Below, one piece after another: positions 4,359 through 32,834 of a DNA stretch of 64,000 nucleotides (the stretch's first letter is position 1; each line of letters opens with the position of its first letter). The stretch spans positions 1 to 64,000 of the forward strand of contig MEOQ01000045.1 in NCBI GenBank assembly GCA_001769275.1. The letters are read 5' to 3'. The position numbers and the translations under genes are program-made. The stretch comes from Bacteroidetes bacterium GWF2_43_63. GTDB lineage: Bacteria; Bacteroidota; Bacteroidia; Bacteroidales; DTU049. The notes under the pieces are model-generated. The model saw nothing but the letters and a program-made list of their open reading frames with translations. It was not told where the DNA came from and made no database searches.

Positions 4359-6020
4359 ATGAATGAGCAGGAACTGAAGCAATTTTTAAAAGAAAAATAT
4401 CCGAAGGAAAACGAAGCCTGCGAATGGAAAGAATTCGGGTCATTGAAGAACTCCTTTTCAGGATCGGCAGGCGATGATATAATTTCTTACGTTTCGGCCA
4501 TAGCCAACATGGAAGGTGGCGCACTGGTTATTGGTGTTGAAGACAACACCTGCGAGATTAAAGGCATTCGCGATTTCAACAACCACACTACTCAAAAAAT
4601 CAAACTCAGAATACTGGAAAAATGCGCAAGTCTTTCTTCGGAAGGTTTGCACGCCGAAGATTTTACAACCAGCGATTCAAATAAAACGATTTGGATTATT
4701 CATATTCCGAAGCACCTGCCCCGCCAGCCGGTTATAGCCCATTCAAAGGCCTGGCAGAGAATTGAAGACAGTCTGGTAGAAATGAGGAAAGAGCGTAGAG
4801 ATGCCATTCTGAAAGAACCGGCGGGTTATGCCGAAGACTGGTCAGCAGCCATCATTCCAGTAGCAACCATTGATGACCTGGACCCGCTGGCCATAAAGAA
4901 AGCCCGCGAAGAATACAAAACAAAAAATCAAAACAGAGCTGCTGAATGTGATCAATGGGACGATGTTACTTTTCTGAATAAGGCCAAAGTCACCATAAAA
5001 GGAGCAATTACAAATACCGCCGTTTTATTGCTTGGAAACGAGGAATCCTCACATTTTCTGCAACCCGCAATTGCAAAAATCAGTTGGATTCTGAAAGATG
5101 ACAACAACACCGAATTGGATTATGAACATTTCGGAACGCCTTTCATTCTCAGTACGCAAAAAGTATTGGCCCGCATTAGGAATCTGACCTACAGATACCT
5201 CCCTGACAGCACGCTGTTTCCAACAGAAATACCACAGTATGATTCATATGTAATCAGAGAAGCCCTTCACAATTGCATTGCGCATCAGGATTACAGCATG
5301 CGTAGCAGAATTACTGTTGTTGAAAAAACGGATGAACTGGTTTTTACGAATGTAGGTCATTTTATACCTGAATCCGTTGAAATAGTAATTGAACAGGATG
5401 CTCCACAGGAGTTTTACCGCAATGCTTTTCTGGCTGAAGCAATGGTAAACCTCAATATGATAGATACCATTGGTAGTGGCATCAAACGTATGTTTAACAC
5501 TCAACGAAAAAGATTTTTCCCAATGCCCGACTATGATCTGTCGAACCCCGAAAAGGTTGCAGTACGTGTTCTTGGCCGGGTTTGGGATATCAATTACACG
5601 CGATTGCTGATTAAAAACACTGATCTTGATTTGAAGACTGTTGTATTGCTTGACCGGGTTCAGAAACATCAGCCCATTACTGATACAGAAGCGTCTGACC
5701 TCAGAAAACAACGTTTGATTGAAGGCCGGAAAAACAACCTGTATGTGTCTTCTCATGTTGCAAAAGTTACCGGTGATAAAGCATCTTATATTAAAAACAA
5801 GGGCTTCGATGATCAGTATTATAAAGATATGATTATTGAATACATCCGGAAATTTCATGCAGCTGCCCGGGCCGACATAGAAGCGCTTATTATTGAGAAG
5901 CTGCCTGCCGGACTAACTGAAAAACAAAAGAAAGACAAAGTGAAAAACCTGCTGCAGGATATGAAACGCAAGGACCTTTTAACACTAAACGAAGAGCAGA
6001 AATGGATACTAAAGAAGTAA
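4359..6020 (+). CDS. AlbA_2 (Schlafen-type) DNA-binding / ATPase-domain protein of the hsd operon
   Basis: Residues 15-130 resemble the AlbA_2 domain shared with Schlafen proteins (CEWKEF near the start, then MEGGALVIGVEDN). The middle (about 270-380) resembles the small GHKL ATPase region often following it, with REALHNCIAHQDY and IGSGIKRMF. The C-terminal part is winged-helix-like. Proteins of this kind are frequent passengers of type I restriction operons, and their role there is not settled. I chose the ATG at 4359, 10 bases after hsdS, rather than a TTG three codons earlier. A repeat array follows it, so hsdR may have separate control. Confidence 0.8.
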   Translation: MNEQELKQFLKEKYPKENEACEWKEFGSLKNSFSGSAGDDIISYVSAIANMEGGALVIGVEDNTCEIKGIRDFNNHTTQKIKLRILEKCASLSSEGLHAEDFTTSDSNKTIWIIHIPKHLPRQPVIAHSKAWQRIEDSLVEMRKERRDAILKEPAGYAEDWSAAIIPVATIDDLDPLAIKKAREEYKTKNQNRAAECDQWDDVTFLNKAKVTIKGAITNTAVLLLGNEESSHFLQPAIAKISWILKDDNNTELDYEHFGTPFILSTQKVLARIRNLTYRYLPDSTLFPTEIPQYDSYVIREALHNCIAHQDYSMRSRITVVEKTDELVFTNVGHFIPESVEIVIEQDAPQEFYRNAFLAEAMVNLNMIDTIGSGIKRMFNTQRKRFFPMPDYDLSNPEKVAVRVLGRVWDINYTRLLIKNTDLDLKTVVLLDRVQKHQPITDTEASDLRKQRLIEGRKNNLYVSSHVAKVTGDKASYIKNKGFDDQYYKDMIIEYIRKFHAAARADIEALIIEKLPAGLTEKQKKDKVKNLLQDMKRKDLLTLNEEQKWILKK

Positions 6021-15078: not shown

Positions 15079-16077
15079 TTAGATTTTAAATGCGTTAATT
15101 AAATTTCCGTTGCTATCATATCCCAGCGTCTTGTTTTTAAAATAATGAAACATTTTGTCGGTGTCGCTGTTTGAAACGCCAGATTTAGCGATGAAATCAT
15201 AGACATCTTCCCAACACATTCTGCTGAATGTTCTGGTATCATTGGCCTGGATATGCTTGCTGAATTCAGTCTCAATGGCCTTTTCTTTTTCGCGAAGCAC
15301 AATATTAGCCAGAATAAATGGCTTATTCATTTGCAGGGCCATCCAGGTGCCGAGTAGCCAGAAACGAAGCAATTCGTATTTCTGAGCTTCAACGACCGTC
15401 TGGTAGTTGCTCCTGAACACCTGATCATACCAGCCATTGGCACCGGTAGTGTATCCATTCGGGACTTTCATGTGTCTGTCATAATTTTCTCCGGAACCGG
15501 AAGTGTCATTGCCCGAAGTTACTTTCGCCTCAATGAAAATCAAAGCTTTGTCTGTATTGATAATGATATCCGGCTCTGATCCGCGTGTAATTGTTTCGCC
15601 GAAAGCCAGTCTGGCTGAATTCAATTCGGACCAACCGGTGTATTTTTGGTCGTTTGCCGAATAGTATTCCAGTCTGGAAAATGACCAGAGAATCAGCTCT
15701 GCAGTATTTATGGCAGTACTGAAATAGTCGTTAAGAAATGACGGCAATAAGTTCTGCCGTTCCAGATACCTGAACACATTCCAGGTAACTGCATCTTCGC
15801 TGTTTTCGCGTGCAATGCGACTTTCGCGTTTAACGGTCTTGATAGCCGAAAACAACTCCATGTCCGAATCATCTGCCCAGAGCAGATTCTCTTCTTCTCT
15901 TTCATACTCATAGGTCGAAGGAGAAATAAATATCCGGTGCTCCGGACATTGAAAGCGCGGCTCTTTTTTAAATGAGTTTTTCTGTCGCTCCACTGTGTGC
16001 GTACAGCCTGCAACCGGACATTCGACAGTAGCGTCATCGATGGAGAGGAGGGGTTTGAGATTTGTTAAATTAAACAT
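15079..16077 (-). CDS. Zinc-ribbon PD-(D/E)XK nuclease-like protein
   Basis: The N terminus has a zinc-ribbon-like pattern (CPVAGC near residue 20 and CPEH near 44). The centre has EPDIIINTDKALIFIEAKV (about 172-190), a clear PD-(D/E)XK nuclease core with the metal-binding Asp, then Glu-x-Lys. The flanking helices fit restriction-endonuclease-like folds. The protein probably cleaves or binds DNA. It is the middle gene of the WYL-linked operon, 12 bp after the UDG-like gene and 4 bp before the membrane protein. It could equally be a non-catalytic DNA-end-binding protein, but the active-site residues look complete. Confidence 0.7.
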   Translation of the reverse strand: MFNLTNLKPLLSIDDATVECPVAGCTHTVERQKNSFKKEPRFQCPEHRIFISPSTYEYEREEENLLWADDSDMELFSAIKTVKRESRIARENSEDAVTWNVFRYLERQNLLPSFLNDYFSTAINTAELILWSFSRLEYYSANDQKYTGWSELNSARLAFGETITRGSEPDIIINTDKALIFIEAKVTSGNDTSGSGENYDRHMKVPNGYTTGANGWYDQVFRSNYQTVVEAQKYELLRFWLLGTWMALQMNKPFILANIVLREKEKAIETEFSKHIQANDTRTFSRMCWEDVYDFIAKSGVSNSDTDKMFHYFKNKTLGYDSNGNLINAFKI

Positions 16078-16089
16078 GGCAAGAAATAC

Positions 16090-16734
16090 TTATCGTACAC
16101 TTTTTTGTTTTTGAATTTCTGCTTTTTTAAATGCATTAATTACTTCATTGAAGTGCTTTTCATGTGTGTAATTCTTTTTTCTTACATTCGGATGCCAAGA
16201 ATTTATCCAAATTCTGTTTTGTGAGTCTACATATGTCCAATCATCATCAAAATCAAAATTCTCATCCTTGACTACGTTTGTCAAGTGAAAAGTATTTCCA
16301 CAAATAATTATTTCTGGTTTTATTTGGGTATTAATCTGATCAAATATTTTTTCTGCACAATTCTCTTTTTCAATTTCTCTTTTGAAAAGATTCATATCTG
16401 TATAAGAAATTCCAGGCGATTTTTTCAAATTGGCAACAGCAATATAGTCGAGTATGTCCGTTAGTTTCTTGTCGTCAAATTCATTGATTTCATCAAAGGA
16501 ATTTGTGGTAAGAATGCCCCATGACACTTTGCACAAAAGGCCAAAGGTGTTTTTCCATTTTTCGTAACTAAATAGACCTTCTTTTGAATCTCTGACTCTT
16601 AAAAATTCAGTTAGATCCCAGTCCTTTTTTCCTTTTGGATCATTTACTTCTTTTAGAACCCACAGAAGTTTCTTTTTGTTTCCAAGCTTACCAAATTTGT
16701 CTTCGTTGATAATTCCGTCTTTAATTTTACTCAT
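16090..16734 (-). CDS. Hypothetical protein with a UDG-superfamily-like layout
   Basis: The 214-residue protein begins with LLWVLKEVND near residue 20. It has IAVANLKKSPG at about 100-110 and IIICGNTFHL near 145, then WINSWHPN near 180. This order, with a strand-loop motif, an NLxxxPG-like segment, a buried strand ending in Cys-Gly and a late His, recalls uracil-DNA-glycosylase-like folds. No strict motif proves it. I start at the ATG at 16734 because the longer frame lacks an ATG. It lies 62 bp downstream of the WYL gene and heads the three-gene operon. Confidence 0.5.
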   Translation of the reverse strand: MSKIKDGIINEDKFGKLGNKKKLLWVLKEVNDPKGKKDWDLTEFLRVRDSKEGLFSYEKWKNTFGLLCKVSWGILTTNSFDEINEFDDKKLTDILDYIAVANLKKSPGISYTDMNLFKREIEKENCAEKIFDQINTQIKPEIIICGNTFHLTNVVKDENFDFDDDWTYVDSQNRIWINSWHPNVRKKNYTHEKHFNEVINAFKKAEIQKQKSVR

Positions 16735-16796
16735 TTTGGGTTTTTTAGTTTGTAAATTTATTTTGTCTCTCCGCCAAAACACGTCGTAGCGGAAAA

Positions 16797-17699
16797 TTAT
16801 TTGTATTTCTTCGCCATGGCGTCAATGGTTTTCTTAATGTCTTTTACCAGCCATACTGGCTCCAGTAGCTTCGCGCGGTCGCCCATCATGAGCAGCTGCT
16901 GTTTGAATTCGAAATTGGGTTTAATGCGCAGACTTATTCGAAGCTCTTTATCATCATCAATCAGAATCTGCTGCGAAGGATGCAGGGGTAGGGTCTTTAA
17001 ATATTTTCCCTGAAACGGATCGAGAGAAATTACCACTGTCTCGACCTTGCTGTTGCTGTAAGTGAGTCCGACAATGTTTTCGAAATCAGCCAGCGGATCG
17101 CGCTTCTTGTCGTGTTTGAAGACTTCGGGCAGTACCTGCAGATTTTCCATCCGGTCGATGCCAAAGGTTCTGAATTCGTTTATTCCATGCGGCATTCCGA
17201 CCAGATACCAGCGGTTTTGATATTCTTTCAAAAGGTAAGGCGCCACCTGGAATTTTCGCGTTTTACCGGTACCGAAATTCTCATGAACAAAGCTCAACAG
17301 CTGTCTGTTGTGGATGGCCTGAAGAATGTGTTTGAGGTTTTCAATCCCTTTCAATCGGCCCTGCGCATCGAAAACAATATAGGATAAAGCTTCTTTACTG
17401 TCCCTGAGACTCGCACTCAGCACGTCAGCAGTGCCAATGATCTCGAAAAACCGCATGACTGATTCAAAATTCGGTGAGCGTTCATGGTCAACGCAATAGC
17501 CACCCAGGCTTCTGTTGTAAACGATCTCAATACCAAATTCGTCTCTTATTTGCTCAATGTCGCGCTGCAGCGTGCGTGTCGATATTTCAAAGTCGGAGTC
17601 ATGGAGAAAAGACCTGATTTCTTCGAACGACGGATGCCGGTCTCCACCTATTTTCTGCAGCAGCAACAGCCAGCGGTGTAATGTACCTTGGTATGACAT
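16797..17699 (-). CDS. WYL-domain transcriptional regulator
   Basis: The N terminus (about 1-70) is a DeoR/HTH_11-type winged helix, with STRTLQRDIEQIRDEFG as recognition region. The C-terminal two-thirds is a WYL domain with YQNRWYLVGMPH near 165 and a WCX-type tail. WYL regulators usually sense nucleotides or nucleic-acid ligands and often control phage-defence operons. This one lies directly upstream of the UDG-like/PD-(D/E)XK/membrane operon on the same strand, and a palindrome overlaps its own promoter. It is therefore probably an autorepressor and the operon's switch. Confidence 0.88.
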   Translation of the reverse strand: MSYQGTLHRWLLLLQKIGGDRHPSFEEIRSFLHDSDFEISTRTLQRDIEQIRDEFGIEIVYNRSLGGYCVDHERSPNFESVMRFFEIIGTADVLSASLRDSKEALSYIVFDAQGRLKGIENLKHILQAIHNRQLLSFVHENFGTGKTRKFQVAPYLLKEYQNRWYLVGMPHGINEFRTFGIDRMENLQVLPEVFKHDKKRDPLADFENIVGLTYSNSKVETVVISLDPFQGKYLKTLPLHPSQQILIDDDKELRISLRIKPNFEFKQQLLMMGDRAKLLEPVWLVKDIKKTIDAMAKKYK

Positions 17700-19878: not shown

Positions 19879-20433
19879 ATGAAAAAGAACCCTATATATA
19901 CAATTGGCCATGGACACAGGAAACAAGATGAATTCCTTGGGCTTTTGAAGCAGTTTGAAATTCAATATTTGATAGATGTACGGTCTCAACCCTATTCTAA
20001 ATTCAACCCTGATTTTAACCAAAATGAGATAAAATTGTTTCTTGAAAAAAACTCGGTGAAGTACGTCTATATGGGAGATACTCTTGGCGGTATGCCAAAA
20101 GATCTTTCATGCTATACCCCTAAGGGTATTGTAGATTATGAAATATTGAAATCAAAGGATTTTTTCCTGAAAGGAATTGATCGGTTGATAATTGCAAATG
20201 ATCAAGATTTGAAGATTGTTATTTTGTGTAGTGAAAGCAAGCCGACTGAATGCCATCGCACTAAGCTTATTGGGCGAGTTCTGAGTGAACATGAAATTGC
20301 TGTTGTACATATTGATGAAAAGGGAAAATTGAAAGACCAAATCACGGTCATAAATGAGTTAAATAAGGGCTACTCAGAGATTGACTTATTTGGCGAAAAG
20401 AAAAATACAACTTCAAGAAAACCACATCTTTGA
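19879..20433 (+). CDS. DUF488-family protein (first of pair)
   Basis: The N-terminal YTIGHGHRKQDEFLGLL, the central LIDVRSQPYSKFNPDF and the late ILCSESKPTECHR are the three hallmarks of DUF488, a Rossmann-like family of unproven biochemistry. Conserved Asp, Arg, Cys and His suggest an active or binding site. The length of 184 aa is typical. The next DUF488 gene begins 3 bp after its stop and a dual-OB-type gene 1 bp after that, so the three form one operon. Paired, non-identical DUF488 proteins could act as a heterodimer. Confidence 0.85.
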   Translation: MKKNPIYTIGHGHRKQDEFLGLLKQFEIQYLIDVRSQPYSKFNPDFNQNEIKLFLEKNSVKYVYMGDTLGGMPKDLSCYTPKGIVDYEILKSKDFFLKGIDRLIIANDQDLKIVILCSESKPTECHRTKLIGRVLSEHEIAVVHIDEKGKLKDQITVINELNKGYSEIDLFGEKKNTTSRKPHL

Positions 20434-20436
20434 AAT

Positions 20437-20916
20437 ATGGAAATTTTTACCATAGGCGTTTATAACTCAACTGAAAAAGAGTTTTTTGAAAAATTGACCA
20501 CTTTAAAAATTGATACATTTTGTGACGTTCGTCAGCGGCGTGGCGTGCGAGGTTCAAAATATGCTTTCGTAAATAGCATCCGTCTTCAGAAAAGACTTGC
20601 GGAATTGAATATACAATACCTTTATGAGCCTGGGCTTGCACCTACGACCGAAATAAGAAATCTTCAAAAAGAAGTTGATTTGAACTTGGGGGAACAAAAA
20701 AGAGATAGACAGCAATTGGGAAAGGTCTTTATACTAGAGTTTAGTAATAGAATCATCAACAAATTTGATTTGACTCGGTTTAATTCCTTCTTGATATCTT
20801 CGGGCGCAAAAAAAGTTGTGTTTTTTTGCGTCGAGGAGTTTCCCAATGCATGTCACAGATCTTTAGTCGCAAATAAAATAAGAGATGAATTTAATTATGA
20901 GGTAAAACACCTATAA
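20437..20916 (+). CDS. DUF488-family protein (second of pair)
   Basis: The protein begins IFTIGVYNSTEKEFFEKL, continues FCDVRQRRGVRGSKYAF and ends VVFFCVEEFPNACHRSLVA. The DUF488 pattern is therefore kept, but the His of the TIGH motif is replaced by Val. It is shorter (159 aa) than its neighbour and only distantly similar to it, so the two arose by old duplication or separate recruitment rather than a recent tandem copy. It lies between the first DUF488 gene (3-bp gap) and the dual-OB gene (1-bp gap). Confidence 0.83.
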   Translation: MEIFTIGVYNSTEKEFFEKLTTLKIDTFCDVRQRRGVRGSKYAFVNSIRLQKRLAELNIQYLYEPGLAPTTEIRNLQKEVDLNLGEQKRDRQQLGKVFILEFSNRIINKFDLTRFNSFLISSGAKKVVFFCVEEFPNACHRSLVANKIRDEFNYEVKHL

Positions 20917-20917
20917 C

Positions 20918-21532
20918 ATGGAAGTTCTAATTGTTGCTAAAACGCATATGAGAAATGGGAGCTGCGTTGGAGGTTATGACATTACAAGTAAAAGAAATGT
21001 AAGGCTGTTAAATGCAAATGCTGAAAACCAGCCACATGACACTGAATTTAATGTAGGTCAGGTGTGGGAAATTGAGTACGCTATCAGACCGGTTCTAAAT
21101 CCACCTCACATTGAAGATGTCCTTGTTTTATCAAAGAATTTTATCAGAGAAGAAAAAAACCCTTACACTTTTTTGCTTAACAGTGTAAAAATTTGGAAAG
21201 GTGATCCAACTTGCATTTTTGATGGCAAAGTGAATTTTCCTCGGGGAAAGAGCTGTTTTGTGACAAATACAAGAGGAATTCCATCTCAAAGTGTTGGATT
21301 TTGGATGGCAGACAAAGATCTCGAACTTACAATTTTTGGAGACCAGAAGCACTTTTACTACTTTGGTGAATACGGCGATGTTTATGCAATCCCTTTTGTT
21401 GGTTTTCAACCTGTAGAAGACAAAATTAAAAAAGGCTCTATAATCAGGGTGTCCCTTGCAAGATGGTGGAATCCAAATCCAAATGAAGACAAAAGGTGCT
21501 ATTGTCAGCTGTCTGGTTGGTTTATGCAATAA
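20918..21532 (+). CDS. Dual-OB-domain-like protein of the DUF488 operon
   Basis: The 204-residue protein opens with EVLIVAKTHMRNGSCVGGYDI, continues with NVRLLNA and has later beta-rich stretches (VGQVWEIEYAI, GSIIRVSLARWW, YCQLSGWF). This layout matches proteins annotated as containing a dual OB fold, but I identify it from memory of the pattern and not from a search. OB folds bind nucleic acid or oligonucleotides. It begins one base after the second DUF488 gene. The repeated joining of DUF488 proteins with a nucleic-acid-binding partner points to a compact conflict or RNA/DNA-processing module, which is inference. Confidence 0.6.
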   Translation: MEVLIVAKTHMRNGSCVGGYDITSKRNVRLLNANAENQPHDTEFNVGQVWEIEYAIRPVLNPPHIEDVLVLSKNFIREEKNPYTFLLNSVKIWKGDPTCIFDGKVNFPRGKSCFVTNTRGIPSQSVGFWMADKDLELTIFGDQKHFYYFGEYGDVYAIPFVGFQPVEDKIKKGSIIRVSLARWWNPNPNEDKRCYCQLSGWFMQ

Positions 21533-21661: not shown

Positions 21662-22690
21662 TTATTTACTGGCGTTTTTTTGCGTATAAATTTTAATCAA
21701 TTCCATAACCCTATTCGTTATACGCGAGACCATGTGAGTTGGGCTGATTACTTTCACATTTTCCCCATACGACAACACCAATTGCTCAAATTCATAATTA
21801 ATGATCAGGTTTAATCTGACTTCCAGGCAATCCGGGGATAACCATTTTGACTTTTGCGAACCATGAAGAGGTTTTGTTTCTATGTATTTACCGGATAGTC
21901 CGAAAAACAACAAAACTACTTCTTCCACTTTTCCGTTTTCCGGAATTGTGACGCCAACAATGTCATCAAAAAATTCGTCCCAGTTCTCGTCTGTTTTTAC
22001 ATATTTTGCTCTTGTCAACTCTTCAACAGAAACAACGCGATCCAAAGCAAGAGTCCATATTTTATTCTGCTGCATATTCAGCCCTAAAACAAACCAGCGA
22101 TTGTTGTATTGCTTGAGGTAATATGGATGAAACTCTACTTCAATGGGCGCTTGCAAATCAAATGGATGATATTCAAGTTTCAGAACCTGCTTATATGTTA
22201 TTGCGGAATACAAAACGCCGACATATTCTACCCCCTTTAAGTACTCATTGCTGTCAAAAGATATTACTGATGGCTGAGTTGAATTACTTTCCATCCCCTG
22301 TTGCAACTTTGGTATCAACTCGTAAACCCACTCAAACTGCGGCATCCCTTTGAATTGGCTCAGAATTGAAACTGCATCTTTAAGCTGGTTGATTTCTACT
22401 TCGTTCAAAGGCATGTTATTGATTGAAAAAGACATGTCGGCATACCGGTAAAACACTTTATGCCCCTCCCTGATTTTGTTCAACTCAACCGCCCAGCCGT
22501 CGCAACTCTCCATAAATTCTATATCATAGAGAAGTTGTCGCCGGCTTATTCCTTTCTTCTCCGGGTTAATTTCCTGCAGGACAGTATCGACTTCTCTCAT
22601 TAGATCCTCAAGAAAGTACTTTCGGCCAGGGTTTCGAAAACAATTGTCGAGAATTTTATATCGAATAAGTGCATGTTTTGTGTCAGGCAT
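21662..22690 (-). CDS. WYL-domain transcriptional regulator (retron-adjacent)
   Basis: Residues 1-90 form a winged-helix DNA-binding domain (ISRRQLLYDIEFME). Residues about 140-330 form WYL and WCX domains, with YLKQYNNRWFVLGLN near 190. At 342 aa it is a full-length member of the family that commonly regulates phage-defence loci. It is transcribed divergently from the retron. Its -7 box (22715-22722) and the retron promoter (22745-22773) share about 60 bp, so a single bound regulator could control both. It is distinct from the WYL protein at 16797, with a longer N terminus. Confidence 0.88.
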   Translation of the reverse strand: MPDTKHALIRYKILDNCFRNPGRKYFLEDLMREVDTVLQEINPEKKGISRRQLLYDIEFMESCDGWAVELNKIREGHKVFYRYADMSFSINNMPLNEVEINQLKDAVSILSQFKGMPQFEWVYELIPKLQQGMESNSTQPSVISFDSNEYLKGVEYVGVLYSAITYKQVLKLEYHPFDLQAPIEVEFHPYYLKQYNNRWFVLGLNMQQNKIWTLALDRVVSVEELTRAKYVKTDENWDEFFDDIVGVTIPENGKVEEVVLLFFGLSGKYIETKPLHGSQKSKWLSPDCLEVRLNLIINYEFEQLVLSYGENVKVISPTHMVSRITNRVMELIKIYTQKNASK

Positions 22691-22714: not shown

Positions 22715-22745
22715 CAAATATATTAAATTTTCGCAACAATGCAAA
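22715..22745 (-). promoter_or_regulatory. Promoter of the WYL regulator
   Basis: On the minus strand, TATATTTG (22722-22715) is a perfect TAnnTTTG -7 box 25 bp before the start codon. TTTG (22745-22742) or TTG (22739-22737) serves as the upstream box. It lies back-to-back with the retron promoter. Confidence 0.6.
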
Positions 22746-22773
22746 TTGATTGCACTATTATAATATAGTTTTG
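22745..22773 (+). promoter_or_regulatory. Promoter of the retron ncRNA-RT transcript
   Basis: ATTG (22745-22748) and TAGTTTTG (22766-22773) fit the Bacteroidetes promoter with 17-bp spacing. The predicted start, near 22780, falls only a few bases before the a1 repeat at 22787, as expected if the retron RNA is at the 5' end of the transcript. Confidence 0.65.
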
Positions 22774-22786
22774 CTGCAGTTCTTTG

Positions 22787-23046
22787 AAACACCTGCCTAA
22801 GATATTGATTCCGGATGCTGGGAGTAATTGGGAAACCAATGAAACAATGATCGGCATCTCTTCCCGCCCTTGAGGTCCTTGTGGCACTTGTGGCTGGGAT
22901 AAATGTCCATTGGACATGTCTGGAGCCTGCATAGCATTTATAGCAATGAATGAAATTCAAGATATGAAGCTATGTAAGCTAGATATGATTGAGATCTTGT
23001 GAGATCAAGCACGAGCTCATACATAAAGAGTATCAGGCAGGTGTTT
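22787..23046 (+). ncRNA. Retron non-coding RNA (msr-msd)
   Basis: AAACACCTGCCT (22787-22798) is the exact reverse complement of AGGCAGGTGTTT (23035-23046). This 12-bp pair brackets 236 nt and matches the a1/a2 stem that closes retron RNAs. Inside are hairpins such as ATTGG-GAAA-CCAAT, ATGTCC-ATT-GGACAT and CATAGC...GCTATG (8 bp with one G-U). The 3' repeat ends 23 bp before the RT start, the standard retron order. I cannot assign the branching guanosine or the msr/msd boundary with confidence. The RT would copy part of this RNA into msDNA. Confidence 0.8.
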
Positions 23047-23069
23047 TCGAGGAGCTAAAAAGCTAAAAA

Positions 23070-24239
23070 ATGCAAATTGAACAAAAACATATTGACACAT
23101 TAAGAGCACACTTTGCCGAAATGCAAAACAAAGAGGAATTGGCCTTGCTTTTAAGCGCTGCAAAAAATATTCTTTACGGAAAAGTGTGCAAACCAATAAG
23201 TGTAAAGTCTCTGAATTATTATGCAAATCCCGAGTATTGCAAACAGAGATATAAAACATTTGCAATAAAAAAGAAGTCGGGAGGAACACGCACTATTCAT
23301 GCTCCTGTTGAAGGTTTAAAAACTAAACTGCGCGCATTAAACTTCGCATTACAATGTCTTTATGACCCGCACAAAGCTGCAACCGGGTTTGTGAGAGAAA
23401 AATCAATTGTCGACAATGCAAAATGTCATGTCGGACACAATTATGTTTTTAATATTGATTTGAAAGATTTTTTTCATTCATTCGACAGAAACAGGGTGAA
23501 GATTGGATTCATGTCCGAACCATTTAATTTAAATGGCGAAAAAGAGCCACTAGCATTCTTACTCGCAAGTCTTTGCACGCATCCCTTTGAAATTGATGGC
23601 ATACAGCAAATAGTATTGCCTCAGGGCAGTCCCACATCTCCAACTATAACCAATATTCTATGCAGAAAACTGGACCATCGGTTAAGTGGCCTCGCTAAAA
23701 GATTTGGGGCAACATATACTCGTTATGCTGATGATATGACATTCTCTTCAGACCACAACATATACGGCAATGAAGATTTTAGAAATGAATTAGTTAGAAT
23801 TATTGAAGAGGATCAAAAGTTGAAGATCAATCCTGATAAGACCAGGTTGCAAAAAACTGGTTACCGGCAGGAAACCACTGGGCTGGTCGTAAATGACAAA
23901 GTGAACGTTACGAGAAGGTATGTCAAGCAAATTCGAATGTATATCTATTATTGGGAAAAATACGGATATGAGAAAGCTGAGCAAGTTTTCAAAAAAGATT
24001 ATACATTAGACAAGGGTTCTACAAAAAAGAAAACCCCAAGTCTTATCAACGTAATTGATGGGAAATTGAATTTTTTGAAAATGGTGAAAGGCTCTGAAGA
24101 TGGAACCTATAAGGGTTTAAGAGGCAGGTTTGATTCTTTAGCCGGAGTTTTTGATCCCATTAATGAAGTGTTGGATGCCTGGGAAAAGAATGGAATAGAT
24201 GAGGCAGTGAGTTTGTACTTTAAATTAAATGCGGACTAA
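23070..24239 (+). CDS. Retron-type reverse transcriptase
   Basis: The enzyme primes from its own RNA and makes an RNA-linked single-stranded DNA. Visible marks are the retron NAxxH motif NAKCH (116-120), FNIDLKDFF (127-135, catalytic Asp), QGSPTSP (185-191), the catalytic YADD box (219-222) and TTGLVVN (269-275) where most retrons have VTG. At 389 aa it is somewhat longer than average, with a C-terminal extension from about 300. It lacks maturase or HNH domains, which argues against a group II intron. The next gene's ATG overlaps its TAA stop by one base. The locus is AT-rich compared with hsd genes, consistent with separate acquisition. Confidence 0.93.
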   Translation: MQIEQKHIDTLRAHFAEMQNKEELALLLSAAKNILYGKVCKPISVKSLNYYANPEYCKQRYKTFAIKKKSGGTRTIHAPVEGLKTKLRALNFALQCLYDPHKAATGFVREKSIVDNAKCHVGHNYVFNIDLKDFFHSFDRNRVKIGFMSEPFNLNGEKEPLAFLLASLCTHPFEIDGIQQIVLPQGSPTSPTITNILCRKLDHRLSGLAKRFGATYTRYADDMTFSSDHNIYGNEDFRNELVRIIEEDQKLKINPDKTRLQKTGYRQETTGLVVNDKVNVTRRYVKQIRMYIYYWEKYGYEKAEQVFKKDYTLDKGSTKKKTPSLINVIDGKLNFLKMVKGSEDGTYKGLRGRFDSLAGVFDPINEVLDAWEKNGIDEAVSLYFKLNAD

Positions 24240-25390
24240 TGGCAAAAGATAAATACGACTTTATTTTGGAGTTGATTGCAAATAAAAAATTAAGCTTGAA
24301 TCAAAAAGATCGGGTATTAAATTTGTATGCATTGGAATTAAAGAAAGATGGCCAATTGTTGAACGAAAGACTAGAAATGATTATTAGTGAGAATAAAATT
24401 GATTTGGAATTAATAAAAAGAATTGAAGAGGTTGAAAGCAAGATGCGAAAGTTAAATGACGAACAAAATGCACCTCTTAAACCTGCTGAAGAAACAAAAA
24501 TAAGAATAGAACCAAATCCAAAACATGTTGCTGATTTCATGTCTTTATTTAATCAACGAGATGGGCTTAAGTATCTAACTCATGATTATGATGAAAATGA
24601 CGACTTTGAAATTGATAAAATTCTTATTCAGGCAAACAAAGTTTTCACTGAAGCAACAAAAAAACTATTTATTCCACAAAGCTTGTGGCGAACAGTTAAA
24701 CAATTTGCTTTTGACAGTAAGCAAACAGAGTGGACATCAATATCGGCAGATTACACAAAACCCATCCCAATAACAATCGGCTGGGCTACAAAAGAATTAA
24801 GAAATTGGTCAAAGCAAAACAAGTTACACCCTATCAGAAATAATGAGTATAAAAACATCATTAAAGATTTTAAAAGAATTACAAGAATTGAAGCTCCTGA
24901 TTTTGAAATACTTATTGACAAAACCCTGGGTTCCGTTTTTGCAGATGATATAGAAAATTTCGAAGTTCAAAAAAACGCGTTAGAAAAAGCAGACTTTTAT
25001 TCGCATGTGGGTTATTTGAAAGCAGCCTTAGAAGCTATATTCGAAGAAATAAAAAAACGATCAGATTCTTCTTTAAACAAGAAAATATCAATTCATTACG
25101 AACGATCTATTTCCGATGAAGGATATTACTTGAGAGAAGTTCTCATTACTCATCACAATTCATTTCCATCTAAAGAACTTAAACTAATATTACAAGAATG
25201 GAATGAAAAAGGTAACATGGGGAAAATCAAAGAGAAACTTAGAGGGTACTGCCATTGGTCTGTTGAAACCATTATTGAAGAAAAAGCCACTAAAGTTAAC
25301 ATTCTAAGAGATAAAGAATCCCCTGATTTCGAACTTATTGATAAAGTACCCGTTGGGTTTACTCATATATTAACCTTTTACTACAAATAG
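24239..25390 (+). CDS. Retron-associated protein, possible degenerate sensor-kinase-like ATPase
   Basis: No family is certain. Residues 1-80 are strongly helical and charged, probably a coiled coil. The last 130 residues (from about FYSHVGYLKAALEAIFEEI to GFTHILTFYY) have the helix-strand order of a GHKL histidine-kinase ATPase domain. A Gly-poor segment GNMGKIKEKLRGYCHWSVE stands where the G2 region and following helix would be. The N and G1 boxes are not convincing, so ATP binding is doubtful. Its start overlaps the RT stop by one base and the next gene follows by 2 bp. The two following genes carry receiver-like domains, which supports a kinase-like or scaffold role. Confidence 0.55.
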   Translation: MAKDKYDFILELIANKKLSLNQKDRVLNLYALELKKDGQLLNERLEMIISENKIDLELIKRIEEVESKMRKLNDEQNAPLKPAEETKIRIEPNPKHVADFMSLFNQRDGLKYLTHDYDENDDFEIDKILIQANKVFTEATKKLFIPQSLWRTVKQFAFDSKQTEWTSISADYTKPIPITIGWATKELRNWSKQNKLHPIRNNEYKNIIKDFKRITRIEAPDFEILIDKTLGSVFADDIENFEVQKNALEKADFYSHVGYLKAALEAIFEEIKKRSDSSLNKKISIHYERSISDEGYYLREVLITHHNSFPSKELKLILQEWNEKGNMGKIKEKLRGYCHWSVETIIEEKATKVNILRDKESPDFELIDKVPVGFTHILTFYYK

Positions 25391-25392
25391 GC

Positions 25393-26127
25393 ATGATTTA
25401 CCTAATAGATGACAATCAAAATAATCAGCGACTCAGCAACTATAATATTACGTTTATAGAAGAAGGCGCATTTGATGAGTATTTAATTTCAATTGACAAA
25501 CTTGAAATAGGAAGCAGCTTTTCTAGCACTTCACACTTAGATTTTTTAAAAAATGCAGACTGTATTCTTTTACATACCACAACAGAGGATTTTTTACCAG
25601 GAAAAGGGTTTATTCCAGGATCTAAAACCAATGTCCTAAAAATAAAGGAAATCATATCCCAAGAAGGGGAATTAATTCCGATTGTATTATTTAGCAATTC
25701 AATGGGAGAAACAGAATATAACTCTGATAAGAACCCAAACTATATAAGCTCTATTAAAAAGAATTTGTTTTATGAAAGACTCTTTGATTTTTTAGAAAAT
25801 TACAAAAACTCAGGGATAGTTGATTTAAGAATTATAGCTTGGGGCAGCAATTTTGCATGTAAAGAAGTATCAAGACTTGCGATTGAAATACTAAGTGCTT
25901 TTGAGTCAAAGGATAATTCGGACAGATTAAAATTAAGCGATTTGTCGCCGATTATTAAAAGTTTCAAAACATTTCTTGAGCTTTCCTTCTCTAATAGCAA
26001 AGTTAATGAAATCTTGAACGACATAGAGGATAATCCAATTAGGATTAAAGAATTTAAGGACAAAATTAAACATATAACTGAATGTTATGCCAAATATGGA
26101 AAAAACACTTGTAATTGGAAACAGTAA
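25393..26127 (+). CDS. Pseudo-receiver protein of the retron module
   Basis: The N terminus MIYLIDDNQNN matches the first strand and acidic pair of response-regulator receiver domains, and PIVLFSNSMGE resembles strand 4. At the phospho-acceptor position the sequence reads ADCILLHTTTEDF, so the Asp expected at the end of strand 3 is absent. This is probably a receiver fold without normal phosphorylation. The C-terminal 100 residues are helical. The last 41 bases overlap the start of the REC-HEPN gene, indicating coupled translation and near-equal amounts of the two proteins. Confidence 0.6.
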   Translation: MIYLIDDNQNNQRLSNYNITFIEEGAFDEYLISIDKLEIGSSFSSTSHLDFLKNADCILLHTTTEDFLPGKGFIPGSKTNVLKIKEIISQEGELIPIVLFSNSMGETEYNSDKNPNYISSIKKNLFYERLFDFLENYKNSGIVDLRIIAWGSNFACKEVSRLAIEILSAFESKDNSDRLKLSDLSPIIKSFKTFLELSFSNSKVNEILNDIEDNPIRIKEFKDKIKHITECYAKYGKNTCNWKQ

Positions 26128-27748
26128 ATTGTTGAATGATTTGGGTGGTGCTTTTATTGAACTGCCTAGCTTAAACAACGAAATCGAAATGCATAACTGG
26201 ATAGTTGATGTATTTCGTAAAAAAGAAATTGAAAAAGTTGTAATTGAAATTGCAGACAATCCAATACTTTCCCTTAAAATTGGTTATCATATTCGTCTTA
26301 GCATTGAAGATCTAAACAATAGAAGCCTTGTTCCAATTCTATTTATTTGTAAGCTGTCCTTAAATACATTAATAATTCAAACAACAATATTTAGTCATAT
26401 TTTATCTACCAAAGGAGTTTCCTTTTCAGAATATAATTTACAAGAAAATAAAGCGGAAATTGATAATTTGGTTGGTATTAATGAAAGCGAATTCAAAACA
26501 AGGTTTCTTGACATTATTCACATTCAACCTGATGAAACAGTGGGGCGACATTCTTTGGCAAATATTTGGGGAGCTTATTCTATGGATAAAGCTTCTAATG
26601 CCAATGCTCTGCAAGCAAATTCTGAATTTAAAAAATCACTCTATTTTAAGTATGTTTCAGCATTTAATAATCTTAGTAAATTAAAACCAACTACACTGAA
26701 AATACTGGGAAAAATAAATGTTGGCAGTATAAAAAAAATTGAAGCAATTAATAAAAGAATTCTACTTATTGATGATGAAGCTGATAAGGGTTGGGAATTA
26801 GTATTAAGAAAGGTGTTTAATACTTCTTGCGATAAAGATTTTATAGTAATAAAAGAAAAGGTAAAAGATTTTGATACGCTCTCGGAAGAAAGTAAACGAA
26901 TCATTAAATCAGAAAAATTTGATTTGTATCTTGTAGATTTACGTCTTAACGGATTGGACGAAGAAACAAACAATACAATTGAAGCGTTTTCAGGAATGAA
27001 AATGTTAAAAGAAATTAAATCTATAAACAATGGTAATCAGGTTATAATTTTTACTGCTTCGAATAAATCTTGGAACTTGAAATCCCTTTTTGATGCTGGA
27101 GCGGATGGTTATTACATGAAGGAATCGCCAGAATATAATTTTTCAAAAGCAATTTCCGAACAGAATTATATTGATTTCAAAGAAAGTGCTGAAAAATGCT
27201 TTAAAAAGAATTATTTGAGTGCAGTGTACATTCATTGGAGGAGCGCGAAAGAAATGAAATCTAATTTGATTAGTGATTTTATTATTGAATCGGACACTTC
27301 TTTAACTATTGCATGGAAATTAATATATCAGGAGTATCTTGATTTTGGATATTTAATATTATTCCAGATTATTGAATCTTATGCAGACTCCTTATTTCAA
27401 AGTGATGAATCAGGAGAAGATTGTAAAATAAATGACATCATTGTTATAAAAAAAATAGGCGATAATAAGAAAGAATGGGCACTTAAGCATATGCATAATG
27501 GTGCAAATGGAGATTATTTCACTTCTCGAGAAAAAGTGGAACAACATGCAACTCAAAAACCAACAGCTTTATTTAAGGCTTCTTGTATGTTGTATTTCAA
27601 ATACAAAAAAGATGATGTTTTTCTACAAAACTTTGGCAAATTGAACAGAATGAGAAATGACATAGCCCATGGAAAAGGAATCGGAATTGCAAACCATAAT
27701 AAATTGATTGAACTTTTGAAGATTATTAAAGAAATTAGAGAGAAATAA
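26087..27748 (+). CDS. Receiver-domain HEPN effector protein of the retron module
   Basis: Three parts can be seen in 553 residues. Residues 1-125 are alpha/beta and may be a second, degenerate receiver. Residues 223-350 are a complete receiver domain with acidic pair D229/D230, acceptor D284 (YLVDLRL), T323 (IFTAS) and K345 (YYMKE). Residues about 385-553 are all-helical and end with RMRNDIAHG, in which R523 to H528 fits the R-x4-H catalytic motif of HEPN ribonucleases. The start at 26087 (or 26096) lies inside the preceding gene. A HEPN domain behind a phosphorylatable receiver suggests an RNA-cutting abortive effector. The motif is seen, and the function is inferred. Confidence 0.75.
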   Translation: MPNMEKTLVIGNSKLLNDLGGAFIELPSLNNEIEMHNWIVDVFRKKEIEKVVIEIADNPILSLKIGYHIRLSIEDLNNRSLVPILFICKLSLNTLIIQTTIFSHILSTKGVSFSEYNLQENKAEIDNLVGINESEFKTRFLDIIHIQPDETVGRHSLANIWGAYSMDKASNANALQANSEFKKSLYFKYVSAFNNLSKLKPTTLKILGKINVGSIKKIEAINKRILLIDDEADKGWELVLRKVFNTSCDKDFIVIKEKVKDFDTLSEESKRIIKSEKFDLYLVDLRLNGLDEETNNTIEAFSGMKMLKEIKSINNGNQVIIFTASNKSWNLKSLFDAGADGYYMKESPEYNFSKAISEQNYIDFKESAEKCFKKNYLSAVYIHWRSAKEMKSNLISDFIIESDTSLTIAWKLIYQEYLDFGYLILFQIIESYADSLFQSDESGEDCKINDIIVIKKIGDNKKEWALKHMHNGANGDYFTSREKVEQHATQKPTALFKASCMLYFKYKKDDVFLQNFGKLNRMRNDIAHGKGIGIANHNKLIELLKIIKEIREK

Positions 27749-27804
27749 ACAATGCATATACATTGCACTGGAGTTAGCAACCTTTGCATCAAACATTAAC
27801 AACA

Positions 27805-30021
27805 ATGAAGATCTTTGATCACTTCCAACATATCAACCTCACAAGCGATCAACAATATGCGTTGGAAATGCTTCAGGAGTTTTTGGAGAGTGATGAAAGT
27901 GTTTTCATTCTTCAGGGATATGCCGGCAGTGGTAAAACTACACTCCTAAAAGGATTGGTTGAATATTTAAATGAAATTGGTCGTAAGTCTCAATTAATGG
28001 CTCCAACAGGAAGGGCGGCAAAAGTAATTAAACAAAAAACCGGATTTGAGGCCACCACAATTCACAAAGGCATTTACAGCTTTGATACTCTTGTCGAATA
28101 TGAGGCCTCTGAAACAGAAAACAACTCAGAGAGTTATAAATACTTTTACAAAACCAAATATAACCCAAATATTCATGAAACGGTGCTGATTATTGATGAA
28201 GCATCAATGATCTCAAATATTTCAAATGAAGAAGAATATTTTCGGTTTGGCAGTGGATGCTTATTAAATGATCTTATCGATTATTCTCAGATTAAAGCCC
28301 ATCATTCAGGTTCAAAAATAATTTTTGTCGGAGATCCGGCCCAGCTTCCTCCAATCGGCATGAACTTTTCGCCGGCCCTTGATAAAAATTATCTAGCTGA
28401 AAAATACGAGTTAAAAATTGTTGACGCGGAACTCAAAGAAGTCAAACGCCACAATGCAGATAATGGGATACTTAGTTCTGCCACCAAAATCCGTAAGTGT
28501 CTGACCTCTGGGTTTTTTAATGACTTTGATGTTAGAGAAAACGGAAATGATGTTTTTAATCCAAAGTTTGAAGAATTTATCCCTTCGTATAATGCTCAAC
28601 AAGGAACTAAGGTTGTTGTTTCATTTAAGAATAAAACAGCGTCTGACCTAAATCAAATTATACGCAAACATAAATACGGTTCTGATATTCCCATATTGGC
28701 CGGTGATATTATTCTTGTTGGTGGCAACCATTATCGGCTTGATATCATGAATGGTGAGTTTGGCGTTGTTTCAGCTGTAGCATCTGATACTATTAAACGA
28801 GAGGTAAGGTTTAATTTGAGAGATGGCCGCAAAGCATCGGTTTTACTCAAATGGAGACAGGTTGAATTGGTATTCCCTTCTGAAGGCGGTAACAGTAAAA
28901 TGGCAAAAGGTTACATGCTGGAAAACTTTCTATATGGAGATAGTTCTCTTAATCGTGAAGAAAAGCAAGCCTTATATATAGATTTTAAAAATCGAAACCC
29001 CAACATAAAACCAAAGACTCCGGAGTTTAAAGACGCCATAATTAATGACCCTTTTTTCAATTGCATTTTGCTAAAATATGGTTACGCTGTAACTTGCCAT
29101 AAAGCTCAAGGGGGAGAATGGGACTCGGTTTATGTTTTTTGGGATAAGGGAGTAAAAGAGAACTTTAACTTTTTGGATTCAGAACATAATCGATCCGGGA
29201 AAACAAATTCTGAATTCTATCGTTGGGCATACACCGCCATCACAAGAGCTTCTGGAAAACTTTTCTGCATTAATCCGCCTTATTTCAATTCATTCTCGCA
29301 AATGGCAATGGTTGAAGCTACTGTTCAGAACTCATTAAAAGAGTTGACGGGTCATGAAGCCAACCCAATTGAGGTTGTGATTTCAACTGAGGACAAAAAA
29401 CAACTTGAAAAATTTAATCTCACAAACGCTCCTTTATCATTTCAGAATCACTTTCTCCTAGTGAATTTCGCTATTGGAAAGCATTGCATTGATATATTGA
29501 AATGGGAAAAGGTTGGGTATGAAGTCCGATATCTGCTGAAACGAGAAAATGATACTTGCAAGCTCAAGTTTTGGATAAACGTTGACAATAAGTTTAATTC
29601 GAATTTTCAGAAAATTCCTACTAATACAAATTCCGAGACATTTTTTGAAGAAATATCCGCATTGATAAATGCCACCCCTGCAATTATTTTTTCAAGAAAT
29701 ACGGTTGACACAATAATTCCCAGAATTGTATTTGATGTAGCTATTGAAGAAGAAAAACCTTTTCTTGGGGTTCTGTTTGACTCATTGCAAAGATTGCACG
29801 AGAAATCAAGCATAACAATTGATTTTGTCGAGCATCTGAATTATAGAGAACGCTACACTTTTACAAAAGATGGCGAAACCGCCGTTATTGATTTTGAATA
29901 CAATGGTGATGGTTTCTTCGGAAGGGTTTTACCAATTGAAAACAAGTGTAGTAATATTGAATTGCTGAAAACTGTCTTGGATTCGGTTTCAAAATTAAAG
30001 GAGATGGATTATGTCATTTAA
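27805..30021 (+). CDS. RecD-like superfamily 1 helicase
   Basis: The protein is a 5'-3' type SF1B helicase by motif set. Walker A GYAGSGKTTL is near residue 37. PTGRAAKVI (motif Ia), LIIDEASM (II, near 130), FVGDPAQLPPIG (III), VTCHKAQGGEWDSV (V) and YTAITRA (VI) follow in order. The last 230 residues, after motif VI, are an unassigned mixed domain. I start at ATG 27805, since the longer frame adds only seven codons in the intergenic region. The downstream TPR gene overlaps its end by 11 bp, and the pair looks like a two-gene module separate from the retron genes. Confidence 0.88.
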   Translation: MKIFDHFQHINLTSDQQYALEMLQEFLESDESVFILQGYAGSGKTTLLKGLVEYLNEIGRKSQLMAPTGRAAKVIKQKTGFEATTIHKGIYSFDTLVEYEASETENNSESYKYFYKTKYNPNIHETVLIIDEASMISNISNEEEYFRFGSGCLLNDLIDYSQIKAHHSGSKIIFVGDPAQLPPIGMNFSPALDKNYLAEKYELKIVDAELKEVKRHNADNGILSSATKIRKCLTSGFFNDFDVRENGNDVFNPKFEEFIPSYNAQQGTKVVVSFKNKTASDLNQIIRKHKYGSDIPILAGDIILVGGNHYRLDIMNGEFGVVSAVASDTIKREVRFNLRDGRKASVLLKWRQVELVFPSEGGNSKMAKGYMLENFLYGDSSLNREEKQALYIDFKNRNPNIKPKTPEFKDAIINDPFFNCILLKYGYAVTCHKAQGGEWDSVYVFWDKGVKENFNFLDSEHNRSGKTNSEFYRWAYTAITRASGKLFCINPPYFNSFSQMAMVEATVQNSLKELTGHEANPIEVVISTEDKKQLEKFNLTNAPLSFQNHFLLVNFAIGKHCIDILKWEKVGYEVRYLLKRENDTCKLKFWINVDNKFNSNFQKIPTNTNSETFFEEISALINATPAIIFSRNTVDTIIPRIVFDVAIEEEKPFLGVLFDSLQRLHEKSSITIDFVEHLNYRERYTFTKDGETAVIDFEYNGDGFFGRVLPIENKCSNIELLKTVLDSVSKLKEMDYVI

Positions 30022-31558
30022 AGAAGTCAAAGAGCTTAGAACATCAGGAAAGCTTGAAGAAGCATTAACAATGGCGTCCTCGGATTTGGAGAATGATCCT
30101 TCAAATATCTGGAACAAACGTTCCATTGCTTGGGTGTATTACGATTATCTTAAAACGAATGCATATAAAGAATCCTTTGATAAATTTTCGGAAGTTTTGT
30201 CCAAGATAAATGAATTGGAATTGCCGGAAGATGAGAAAATGCTGTTCGATACTTTTTCGTACCAAATTGCAAAAATTATTTTTCATATATCAAAAGAGGA
30301 AAATATTGATTATTCGAAGTTAAATTCGATTTTTGATCAAATACAAAAATTTCATTTCACGAAACCATCAGAAGCTTATTCAATAGTTTATAAAGCTTTT
30401 CACAAAGGATATAAATCCTGGGCTAATTACATTCAATTCGCCGATTGGTGGGATTTTTCAAATTTTCGATCTGAGGATTATCTCAGTGAGGAATTTAAAG
30501 ACAAAAAAATGATGTCGATCGCTGAGCAAGCCTACATCGCATATTCTAAAAAGCTGCTTGACGGAGAAGCAAAAGAAGAAAGTAGTTGGATTGTACAAAA
30601 TAGTATCAACAAAGAAAAAATTCAAGCGTTTCTTCCAAAATTAAATACTATCATTGACCAACATCCGGAGTATCAGTATCCACCATATTTTAAAGCAAAA
30701 CTGTTGTTATCGCTTGGATTGGATCAAAATATTCTTTCCACATTTCTTCCTTTTGCCAGACAAAAAAGAAATGATTTTTGGGTTTGGGAATTAATAACTG
30801 AAATATTTCCTAATGATAAGGATGTGCAGTTTGCTTGCTTCTGCAAAGCGTTAAGTCTTAAAACCCCTGAAGACTTCCTGGTAAAAACGAGGCAATCACT
30901 TGCAAAAATTCTTATTGATCTACAACAATATGACGAAGCAAAAACAGAAATTCAACAAGTTGTTGCAACAAGAGAGAAAAACAAATGGCCAATTCCAAAT
31001 ATTATTGGCAAATGGACTGGAGAAGAATGGTATAAAACCGCCGTTATAAAGACCAACAATCAGGAATTGTATTTAAAACATATTACCAAAGCTGAAGAAG
31101 TAATATTTCAGGACATTGCAGAAGAGATTGTGCTAATTGACTATATTAATCTTGATAAAAAGATGATATCATTTGTCTCGGCTTCAGAAAAATTTGGGTT
31201 TTTTAAATACATGTATATTCCCGGGAAATTGTTTCAGGGAGATGCATTGAAAGTTAGATTCTCGAACAAAAATGATGGTGAACGATTTTTTATTTACACT
31301 ATTTCGCGGTATGATGAGAAAGCTGAAATACCTGGATTGACAAAAACGGTCAGCGGAAACATAAGAATAGGTGAAGGTAAAGATTTTGGGTTTGTCGATG
31401 ATGTGTTTGTTTCTCCACAGCTTATAAAAAACAATAATCTTACTAACAAGCAAGCGGTGTCTGGTCTCGCAATGAAATCATTCGATAAAAAGAAAAATAA
31501 TTGGAGCTGGAAAATGTATTGCATAAAACAGGTAAATAAAGATAACATTCACAACTAA
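30011..31558 (+). CDS. Helical-repeat protein with C-terminal OB/cold-shock-like domain
   Basis: Residues 1-360 are TPR-like helical repeats, starting with KELRTSGKLEEALTMA and continuing with segments such as DLQQYDEAKTEIQQV. The last 140 residues are beta-rich and read KFGFFKYMYIPG, GDALKVRFSN and GKDFGFVDDVFV. The KxFGF(V)xD style is typical of cold-shock or S1-like OB folds that bind RNA or single-stranded DNA. It overlaps the helicase gene by 11 bp, so the helicase and this protein are made together and probably work as a complex. The specific function is unknown. Confidence 0.7.
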   Translation: MSFKEVKELRTSGKLEEALTMASSDLENDPSNIWNKRSIAWVYYDYLKTNAYKESFDKFSEVLSKINELELPEDEKMLFDTFSYQIAKIIFHISKEENIDYSKLNSIFDQIQKFHFTKPSEAYSIVYKAFHKGYKSWANYIQFADWWDFSNFRSEDYLSEEFKDKKMMSIAEQAYIAYSKKLLDGEAKEESSWIVQNSINKEKIQAFLPKLNTIIDQHPEYQYPPYFKAKLLLSLGLDQNILSTFLPFARQKRNDFWVWELITEIFPNDKDVQFACFCKALSLKTPEDFLVKTRQSLAKILIDLQQYDEAKTEIQQVVATREKNKWPIPNIIGKWTGEEWYKTAVIKTNNQELYLKHITKAEEVIFQDIAEEIVLIDYINLDKKMISFVSASEKFGFFKYMYIPGKLFQGDALKVRFSNKNDGERFFIYTISRYDEKAEIPGLTKTVSGNIRIGEGKDFGFVDDVFVSPQLIKNNNLTNKQAVSGLAMKSFDKKKNNWSWKMYCIKQVNKDNIHN

Positions 31559-32474: not shown

Positions 32475-32834
32475 ATGGAAACAACCGCCAAACTCAAAAA
32501 AATCTTCCCAATCGTCACCGGACAAGGGAAAAACGGAACATGGAAGAAGCAGGAATTGTTGTTTGAGATCGGAGGACAATACCCGAAATCCTTATTTGGA
32601 GCGATTTGGGGCGATAAGGTAGATACAACGCTGTTGAAAGAAGGAAACACGCTTCGGCTGTTTTTTGATATCGAAAGCCGAGAATTCAATGGTCGCTGGT
32701 ACACCGATGTGAAAATATGGAAACTGGAGCCCGAAACCGGAAGCACTTCTTCACCGTTGCAAGATTCACCACCAGTGTCTGATGTCGCTCCGGACGATCT
32801 GGGATATGATCCTATGGATCCGCTGCCGTTTTAA
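32475..32834 (+). CDS. DUF3127 single-strand-binding-like OB protein
   Basis: The first 85 residues match the Bacteroidetes DUF3127 OB-fold family (IFPIVTGQGKNGTWKKQELLFEI, then FFDIESREFNGRWYTDVKIWKL). The C-terminal 30 residues are disordered, Pro/Ser/Asp-rich, and end DDLGYDPMDPLPF. That resembles the acidic tip with terminal Phe of SSB proteins that recruits partner enzymes. It therefore probably coats single-stranded DNA of the element. It precedes a 374-residue hypothetical by 23 bp. Similar genes are common on Bacteroidetes phages and integrative elements. Confidence 0.8.
   Translation: METTAKLKKIFPIVTGQGKNGTWKKQELLFEIGGQYPKSLFGAIWGDKVDTTLLKEGNTLRLFFDIESREFNGRWYTDVKIWKLEPETGSTSSPLQDSPPVSDVAPDDLGYDPMDPLPF

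Follow-up and report, generated by a model that had tools for sequence, protein, structure and literature searches.

Does the long inverted repeat that precedes a reverse transcriptase (RT) gene in the genome of Bacteroidetes bacterium GWF2_43_63 enclose the RNA of a retron, and if it does, what might that retron do together with the genes that follow it? The window, that is, the whole 64,000-nucleotide stretch of contig MEOQ01000045.1 that was analysed, had been read in an earlier note as containing an msr-msd RNA bounded by a 12-bp pair of arms (a1 and a2), preceded by a -7 box and followed by the RT. The landmarks of that reading are placed exactly: on the forward strand, the a1 arm AAACACCTGCCT (22787–22798) and the a2 arm AGGCAGGTGTTT (23035–23046) are perfect complements of one another across a spacer of 236 nt, the box TAGTTTTG (22766–22773) ends 13 nt 5′ of a1, and the RT gene opens with the ATG at 23070, 23 nt 3′ of a2.

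The RNA and its flanking stem span positions 22779–23060 of the forward strand, as judged from folding, from covariation and from a match of 82 bits to a covariance model (R1) that is described below. Its minimum free energy is -101.2 kcal/mol (z -5.74), a stability equalled by none of 200 shuffles, and when the 330-nt upstream region is shuffled with its dinucleotides kept, only 2 of 1000 versions contain a long-range arm of 12 bp; by themselves, these shuffle and fold statistics are suggestive. The pair itself stands as described, but it belongs to a stem longer than the 12 bp allotted to it, which is prolonged outward by the pairing of 22782–22786 with 23047–23052 (G-U pairs included) and inward, past a 2-nt bulge, by the pairing of GATATT (22801–22806) with AGTATC (23029–23034), and this inner part covaries too. 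Within the stem lie msr stem-loop 1 (22813–22859), composed of a conserved GTGCTGG...CGGCA stem and a variable, covarying apical helix; msr stem-loop 2 (22862–22900); and a putative msd template region, placed provisionally at 22908–23028, which is variable in sequence, forms two hairpins and has a folding energy of -35.6 kcal/mol on its own (z -3.0 against shuffles). Internal hairpins are thus present, as the earlier note had it, although the fold contains more than the three that were counted there.

A scan of genome contigs with the window RT yielded 25 related loci, mostly from Bacteroidota and 48–75% identical, and further relatives came from two Chryseobacterium plasmids and from genomes G119, G150, G169 and G379; no relative of the RT was found on viral contigs. 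The closest relative (L033, 75%) lies on a contig labelled as part of an ‘archaeon’ MAG; the contig probably comes from a Bacteroidota genome and the bin is probably mixed.

The earlier note had named the conservation or covariation of the 12-bp pair in closely related RT loci as the test of its reading. The relatives retain the pair over RT identities of 48–75%, with compensatory changes at 8 of the 12 base pairs and 94% of cells paired in an alignment of 26 sequences. In the same alignment the inner extension is paired in 94.2% of cells, with compensatory changes at 3 of its 6 pairs, the basal helix of msr stem-loop 1 is paired in 100% of cells, and stem-loop 2, paired in 92.7%, has compensatory changes at all 7 of its 7 consensus pairs. 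Across the consensus structure, changes on both sides support 24 of 33 pairs, and 92% of the cells of the named structure are paired as against 39–48% when it is slid, a result that was matched by 0 of 500 shuffles. An inverted repeat of 8–16 bp, ending 14–35 nt 5′ of the RT, is present in most relatives, and its sequence differs among loci (AAACACCTGCCT, AAACACTTGCC, AAATACTTGTCTGAA, AAGCCTGTTTT and GAAAACCTAAAC are examples). In L002, whose RT is 42% identical, the arms are wholly different (GAGCCTACC/GGTAGGCTC) and the msr core GTGCTGG...CAATGATCGGCA is retained; the same core occurs in L056 (RT 48%). These observations support the window RNA as a genuine, evolutionarily conserved retron RNA. 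In a further locus, L035, a 187-aa ORF (5399–5962) lies between a complete retron RNA (5096–5380) and the RT, so the RNA need not abut the RT gene.

The same alignment points to a priming site. G22807, the first base past the extended a1/a2 stem, is a G in 26 of 26 RNAs, and no such conservation is seen at the more proximal G22801; invariant and situated at the end of the extended stem, G22807 is the natural candidate for the branch guanosine and probably serves as such. When the covariance model R1, built from the msr half, was run on 395 whole Bacteroidota genomes, five matches were strong. Each lies immediately 5′ of an RT of this clade, and those outside the training set were found in G169 (56 bits) and G150 (54 bits). 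A weak match in G021, near which there is no RT, was attributed to chance. The R1 search found no further copy of the RNA in its own genome. Of the covariance-model search that the earlier note had suggested, the part relying on Rfam came up empty, both at the gathering threshold and at E 5, and the element was recovered by R1.

Upstream of the RNA, the box TAGTTTTG is of the Bacteroidota-type TAnnTTTG form expected of a -7 box, and in the window and about half of the relatives such a box stands 5 nt 5′ of a conserved RNA start, GTTCTTTG. Further upstream, at 22740–22754, lies a palindrome, TGCA-N7-TGCA, and most loci have a TGCA palindrome 5′ of the promoter; 20 of 26 have a stricter pattern, GTGCA-N-TGCA, ahead of the RNA, compared with 0.2% of shuffles, a pattern that the window palindrome itself fails because an A replaces the first G. 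The palindrome is probably an operator, and probably that of the divergent WYL/WCX transcriptional regulator encoded on the reverse strand at 21662–22690 (342 aa; Pfam WYL and WCX), homologues of which, mostly 39–55% identical, are found in 24 of 30 RT loci. A second WYL/WCX regulator (16797–17699) is encoded, together with genes without a Pfam match, on the reverse strand at 15079–17699, possibly within the same defence island, and two DUF488 genes with a dual-OB (DuOB) gene after them, all on the forward strand (19879–21532), resemble another conflict-type operon beside the retron.

The RT (23070–24239, forward strand, 389 aa), recognised by PADLOC models, motifs and its place in the tree, has the motifs NAxxH (as NAKCH), PQGSPTS and YADD, and a VTG-like TTG where members of the clade have VTG, ATG or TTG. 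With the covariation in relatives, these motifs and the best match to retron models support the earlier claim that position, order and pairing are those of a retron RNA. There is no fused protease, TIR or Toprim in the window RT, of which PADLOC matches the RT part and Pfam RVT_1 only.

Of what type is this retron? The best PADLOC matches of the window RT are to models XI (330 bits), XII (313) and I-C (299), and a maximum-likelihood tree places the clade inside the XI/XII/I-C supergroup, both of which would suit a plain retron of type XI (protease), XII (TIR) or I-C (Toprim) whose fused effector has been lost and whose downstream genes are unrelated to it. We regard this as improbable, since same-phylum RTs of XIII, III-A, II-A and XI/XII reach about 400–590 bits with their own models whereas this clade scores 289–344, since the clade forms one separate branch (100/99 support) with a conserved msr of its own, and since most relatives have kinase and receiver genes after the RT and the kinase has been fused to the RT three times. 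Cyanobacterial and Herpetosiphon RTs fall outside the branch. The low scores and the separate branch together argue for a retron RT that the PADLOC type models do not cover. It is quite improbable that the RNA is instead a non-branched template or scaffold of a DRT/Abi-like RT, with DNA primed by another route: DRT2 and DRT9 do employ structured ncRNAs without msDNA (PMC12039810, PMC12483538), but here the RNA is flanked by covarying arms, an invariant G stands at the base of the stem, the msd is variable and hairpin-forming, the RT has the NAxxH and VTG-like motifs of retrons, and the DRT2 model gives 46 bits against a cut-off of 390. As for a 5′-UTR regulatory element or the inverted repeat of a mobile element, the repeat does sit between promoter and gene, yet such an origin is scarcely credible for a single-copy element with a conserved internal msr, covariation and no Rfam match, whose counterpart in L035 is complete although an ORF parts it from the RT.

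The genes that follow the RT lie on the same strand. A histidine-kinase-like protein of the HisKin-conflict family (24239–25390; PF22561, E 7.9e-63) is followed by a 244-aa protein (25393–26127), encoded between kinase and receiver, that has no Pfam match and has homologues or fused equivalents in relatives; its position, and the fact that in L036 and L054 it is fused to the receiver protein, suggest that it is receiver-like. Next comes an iREC-REC protein (26087–27748; PF22563, PF00072) with a putative C-terminal HEPN-like domain (R523 N..H528), and then, both recognised by PADLOC and Pfam, a RecD-like SF1 helicase with a TBP-TOTE domain (PDC-M16A; 27784–30021) and a TPR protein with two S1/CSD-TOTE domains (PDC-M16B; 30011–31558). 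A DUF3127 protein (32475–32834; PF11325) is an occasional member of the operon, with homologues in L039, L052, L055 and L084; its position after the TOTE genes is possibly relevant, since some retrons sense single-stranded-DNA-binding proteins. HisKin-conflict is rare, being found among 198 genomes in its own genome only and in plasmids only at the two RT loci. The helicase and TPR genes occur widely without this RT, and in a family search that otherwise returned mostly generic helicases, close PDC-M16A relatives appeared in only about 12 genomes, 2 of them adjoining this RT.

Comparison of the loci reveals which parts of the operon are fixed and which are exchanged. Kinase and receiver genes lie 3′ of the RT in most relatives, and in L038, L040, L042, L046, L047, G169 and G150 they are replaced by one gene (cassette B) of about 260–295 aa, the L047 copy being shorter. 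The RT and the kinase are fused in L037, L041, L044, L002 and L056, with three independent origins on the RT tree, and the cassette has changed on that tree at least four times when L048 is taken as a third state. These repeated cassette changes and fusions point to a constant core of RNA and RT on which the effector cassette is exchanged. In L040 (8293–9291) and L048 (8044–9042), a gene for a YhcG/DUF1016 PDDEXK nuclease separates the effector cassette from the TOTE helicase.

What, then, is the effector? A moderate-confidence structural model of the cassette B protein (pLDDT 70, from five sequences) had no match under E 0.1 in a plain Foldseek search; with VIA-align, AbiA, HepT/HEPN toxins and a HEPN domain protein came out on top (Z 8–9.6), with Roquin and Csm6 next (Z about 7). 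R206 and H210 are invariant in 6 sequences, the RX3-4H spacing being short, and the protein is predicted from its model to have a HEPN fold. In the receiver protein of the other cassette, a C-terminal RNxxxH is nearly invariant among relatives, and motifs of this kind are typical of HEPN RNases. The profile of this C-terminus matched no PDB sequence, and hhalign aligned it with cassette B weakly (19% probability) and in register, a weak but in-register correspondence that suggests a HEPN-like domain. The remainder of the receiver is more conventional: VIA-align, in rows that covered the REC domain only, gave a canonical REC fold (Z 13.5), and the phosphoacceptor and metal-site residues D229, D230, D284 and K345 are invariant in 14 sequences. 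His115 of the kinase is invariant in 17 aligned homologues, an alignment in which N and G boxes, the canonical ATP-binding boxes, are not recognisable; this makes phosphotransfer by the kinase doubtful, and the protein may act as an adaptor. The killing enzyme of the clade is probably an RNase-like HEPN protein.

In the reading that we consider best, and hold with reasonable confidence, the msDNA complex of a retron keeps a HEPN effector in check, here by way of a phosphorelay. The RT would fold the RNA through a1/a2, prime from the 2′-OH of a guanosine where the extended stem ends (G22807 is the probable one) and copy the msd into msDNA, and the complex of RNA, RT and msDNA would hold the HEPN RNase silent. 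In L038, L040, L042, L046, G169 and G150 the presumed HEPN protein comes directly after the RT; in the window, as in most relatives, the receiver protein would end in the HEPN domain and would be connected to the RT by the histidine-kinase-like protein, itself RT-fused in three lineages. Disturbance of the msDNA or the RT by a phage could then release the HEPN domain, or activate it through a change in the receiver, and the freed domain would cleave cellular RNA so that growth stops. The WYL regulator would control the operon via the palindrome over the promoter, and the TOTE helicase and the TPR-S1/CSD protein would be a frequent add-on with a probable direct function on nucleic acids. Abortive defence against phages is the likeliest function, by analogy with retron-Kva2 (type IX), whose HEPN dimer stays bound in an RT-msDNA complex until the msDNA is engaged by a phage protein (PMC13405049), and with Eco8, in which phage SSB pulls on the msDNA (PMC13158370).

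A different division of labour, in which the kinase-like and receiver proteins merely regulate expression and the TOTE helicase/TPR pair is the true effector, has to be weighed against this. In its favour, the helicase and TPR genes are linked to the RT at 20 of the 27 loci that have enough flank, and with both cassettes; however, they are missing from the other seven, among them L085, with RT and cassette B alone, and L086 and L056, with an RT-kinase fusion, a small protein and a receiver alone, and the output domain of the receiver appears HEPN-like, not DNA-binding. We therefore think it unlikely that the helicase and TPR proteins are the effector, and prefer a restrained HEPN domain. A bolder form of the HEPN reading would make this a new type of retron, in which the RT-msDNA gates the kinase, the receiver switches the HEPN RNase, the cassettes are exchanged and a TOTE helicase is added. 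This we put forward tentatively, as a possibility; if true, it would mean that a retron can signal by phosphorylation and not by simple sequestration.

How much of this is new? The clade is a group of Bacteroidota retrons from many lineages with an RNA family of its own, and is represented in neither Rfam nor the PADLOC type models. Retrons, and retrons armed with HEPN proteins, are already known. In the literature covered, whose scope did not extend to the 2020 retron classification or to the papers that named HisKin-conflict and TOTE, no description was found of a retron clade that combines this RNA with TOTE genes and a kinase-receiver-HEPN cassette, nor was any paper that links HisKin-conflict/iREC to a retron; an earlier mention of this operon is possible. 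The compact, conserved msr could seed tools for producing RT-DNA in Bacteroidota, and the repeated swapping of a direct HEPN protein and a kinase-receiver-HEPN cassette on one RNA-RT core makes the communication between msDNA complex and effector testable.

Each part of the operon has its counterpart among known systems. The window kinase and receiver match the HisKin-conflict and iREC models (PF22561, PF22563), which come from prokaryotic conflict contexts, and the downstream pair matches PDC-M16A and PDC-M16B of the TOTE conflict system at 912 and 712 bits; PDC-M16 is usually without this RT, whereas the window copy is linked with a retron. Types XI (RT-protease), XII (RT-TIR) and I-C (RT-Toprim) have the nearest RTs by model score and by tree, but the effector in the window is unfused (the kinase is fused in some relatives), the msr is its own and the scores are far lower. 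Two cyanobacterial plasmid loci, L088 and L089, likewise have an RT, a 10-bp a1/a2 pair and a downstream gene for a HEPN-like protein of 262–301 aa; they differ in belonging to another branch of the RT tree, in having no R1 match and in having an AAA/KTI12-type ATPase gene in place of the TOTE helicase. L088 has a weak WYL match as well, and the two loci represent a sister arrangement outside Bacteroidota. With type IX, in which Kva2 comprises RT, ncRNA, HEPN and winged-helix components, the clade would share a HEPN RNase effector held by RT-msDNA (PMC13405049). The differences are several: the RT_IX model gives the window RT 153 bits compared with 330 for XI, Pfam finds no winged-helix gene among the window neighbours, the presumed effector lies 3′ of the RT, kinase/receiver and TOTE genes are added, and the HEPN protein of Kva2 is without the canonical motif whereas the window protein has RNxxxH. 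The clade would stand beside type IX as a second retron lineage with HEPN-type effectors.
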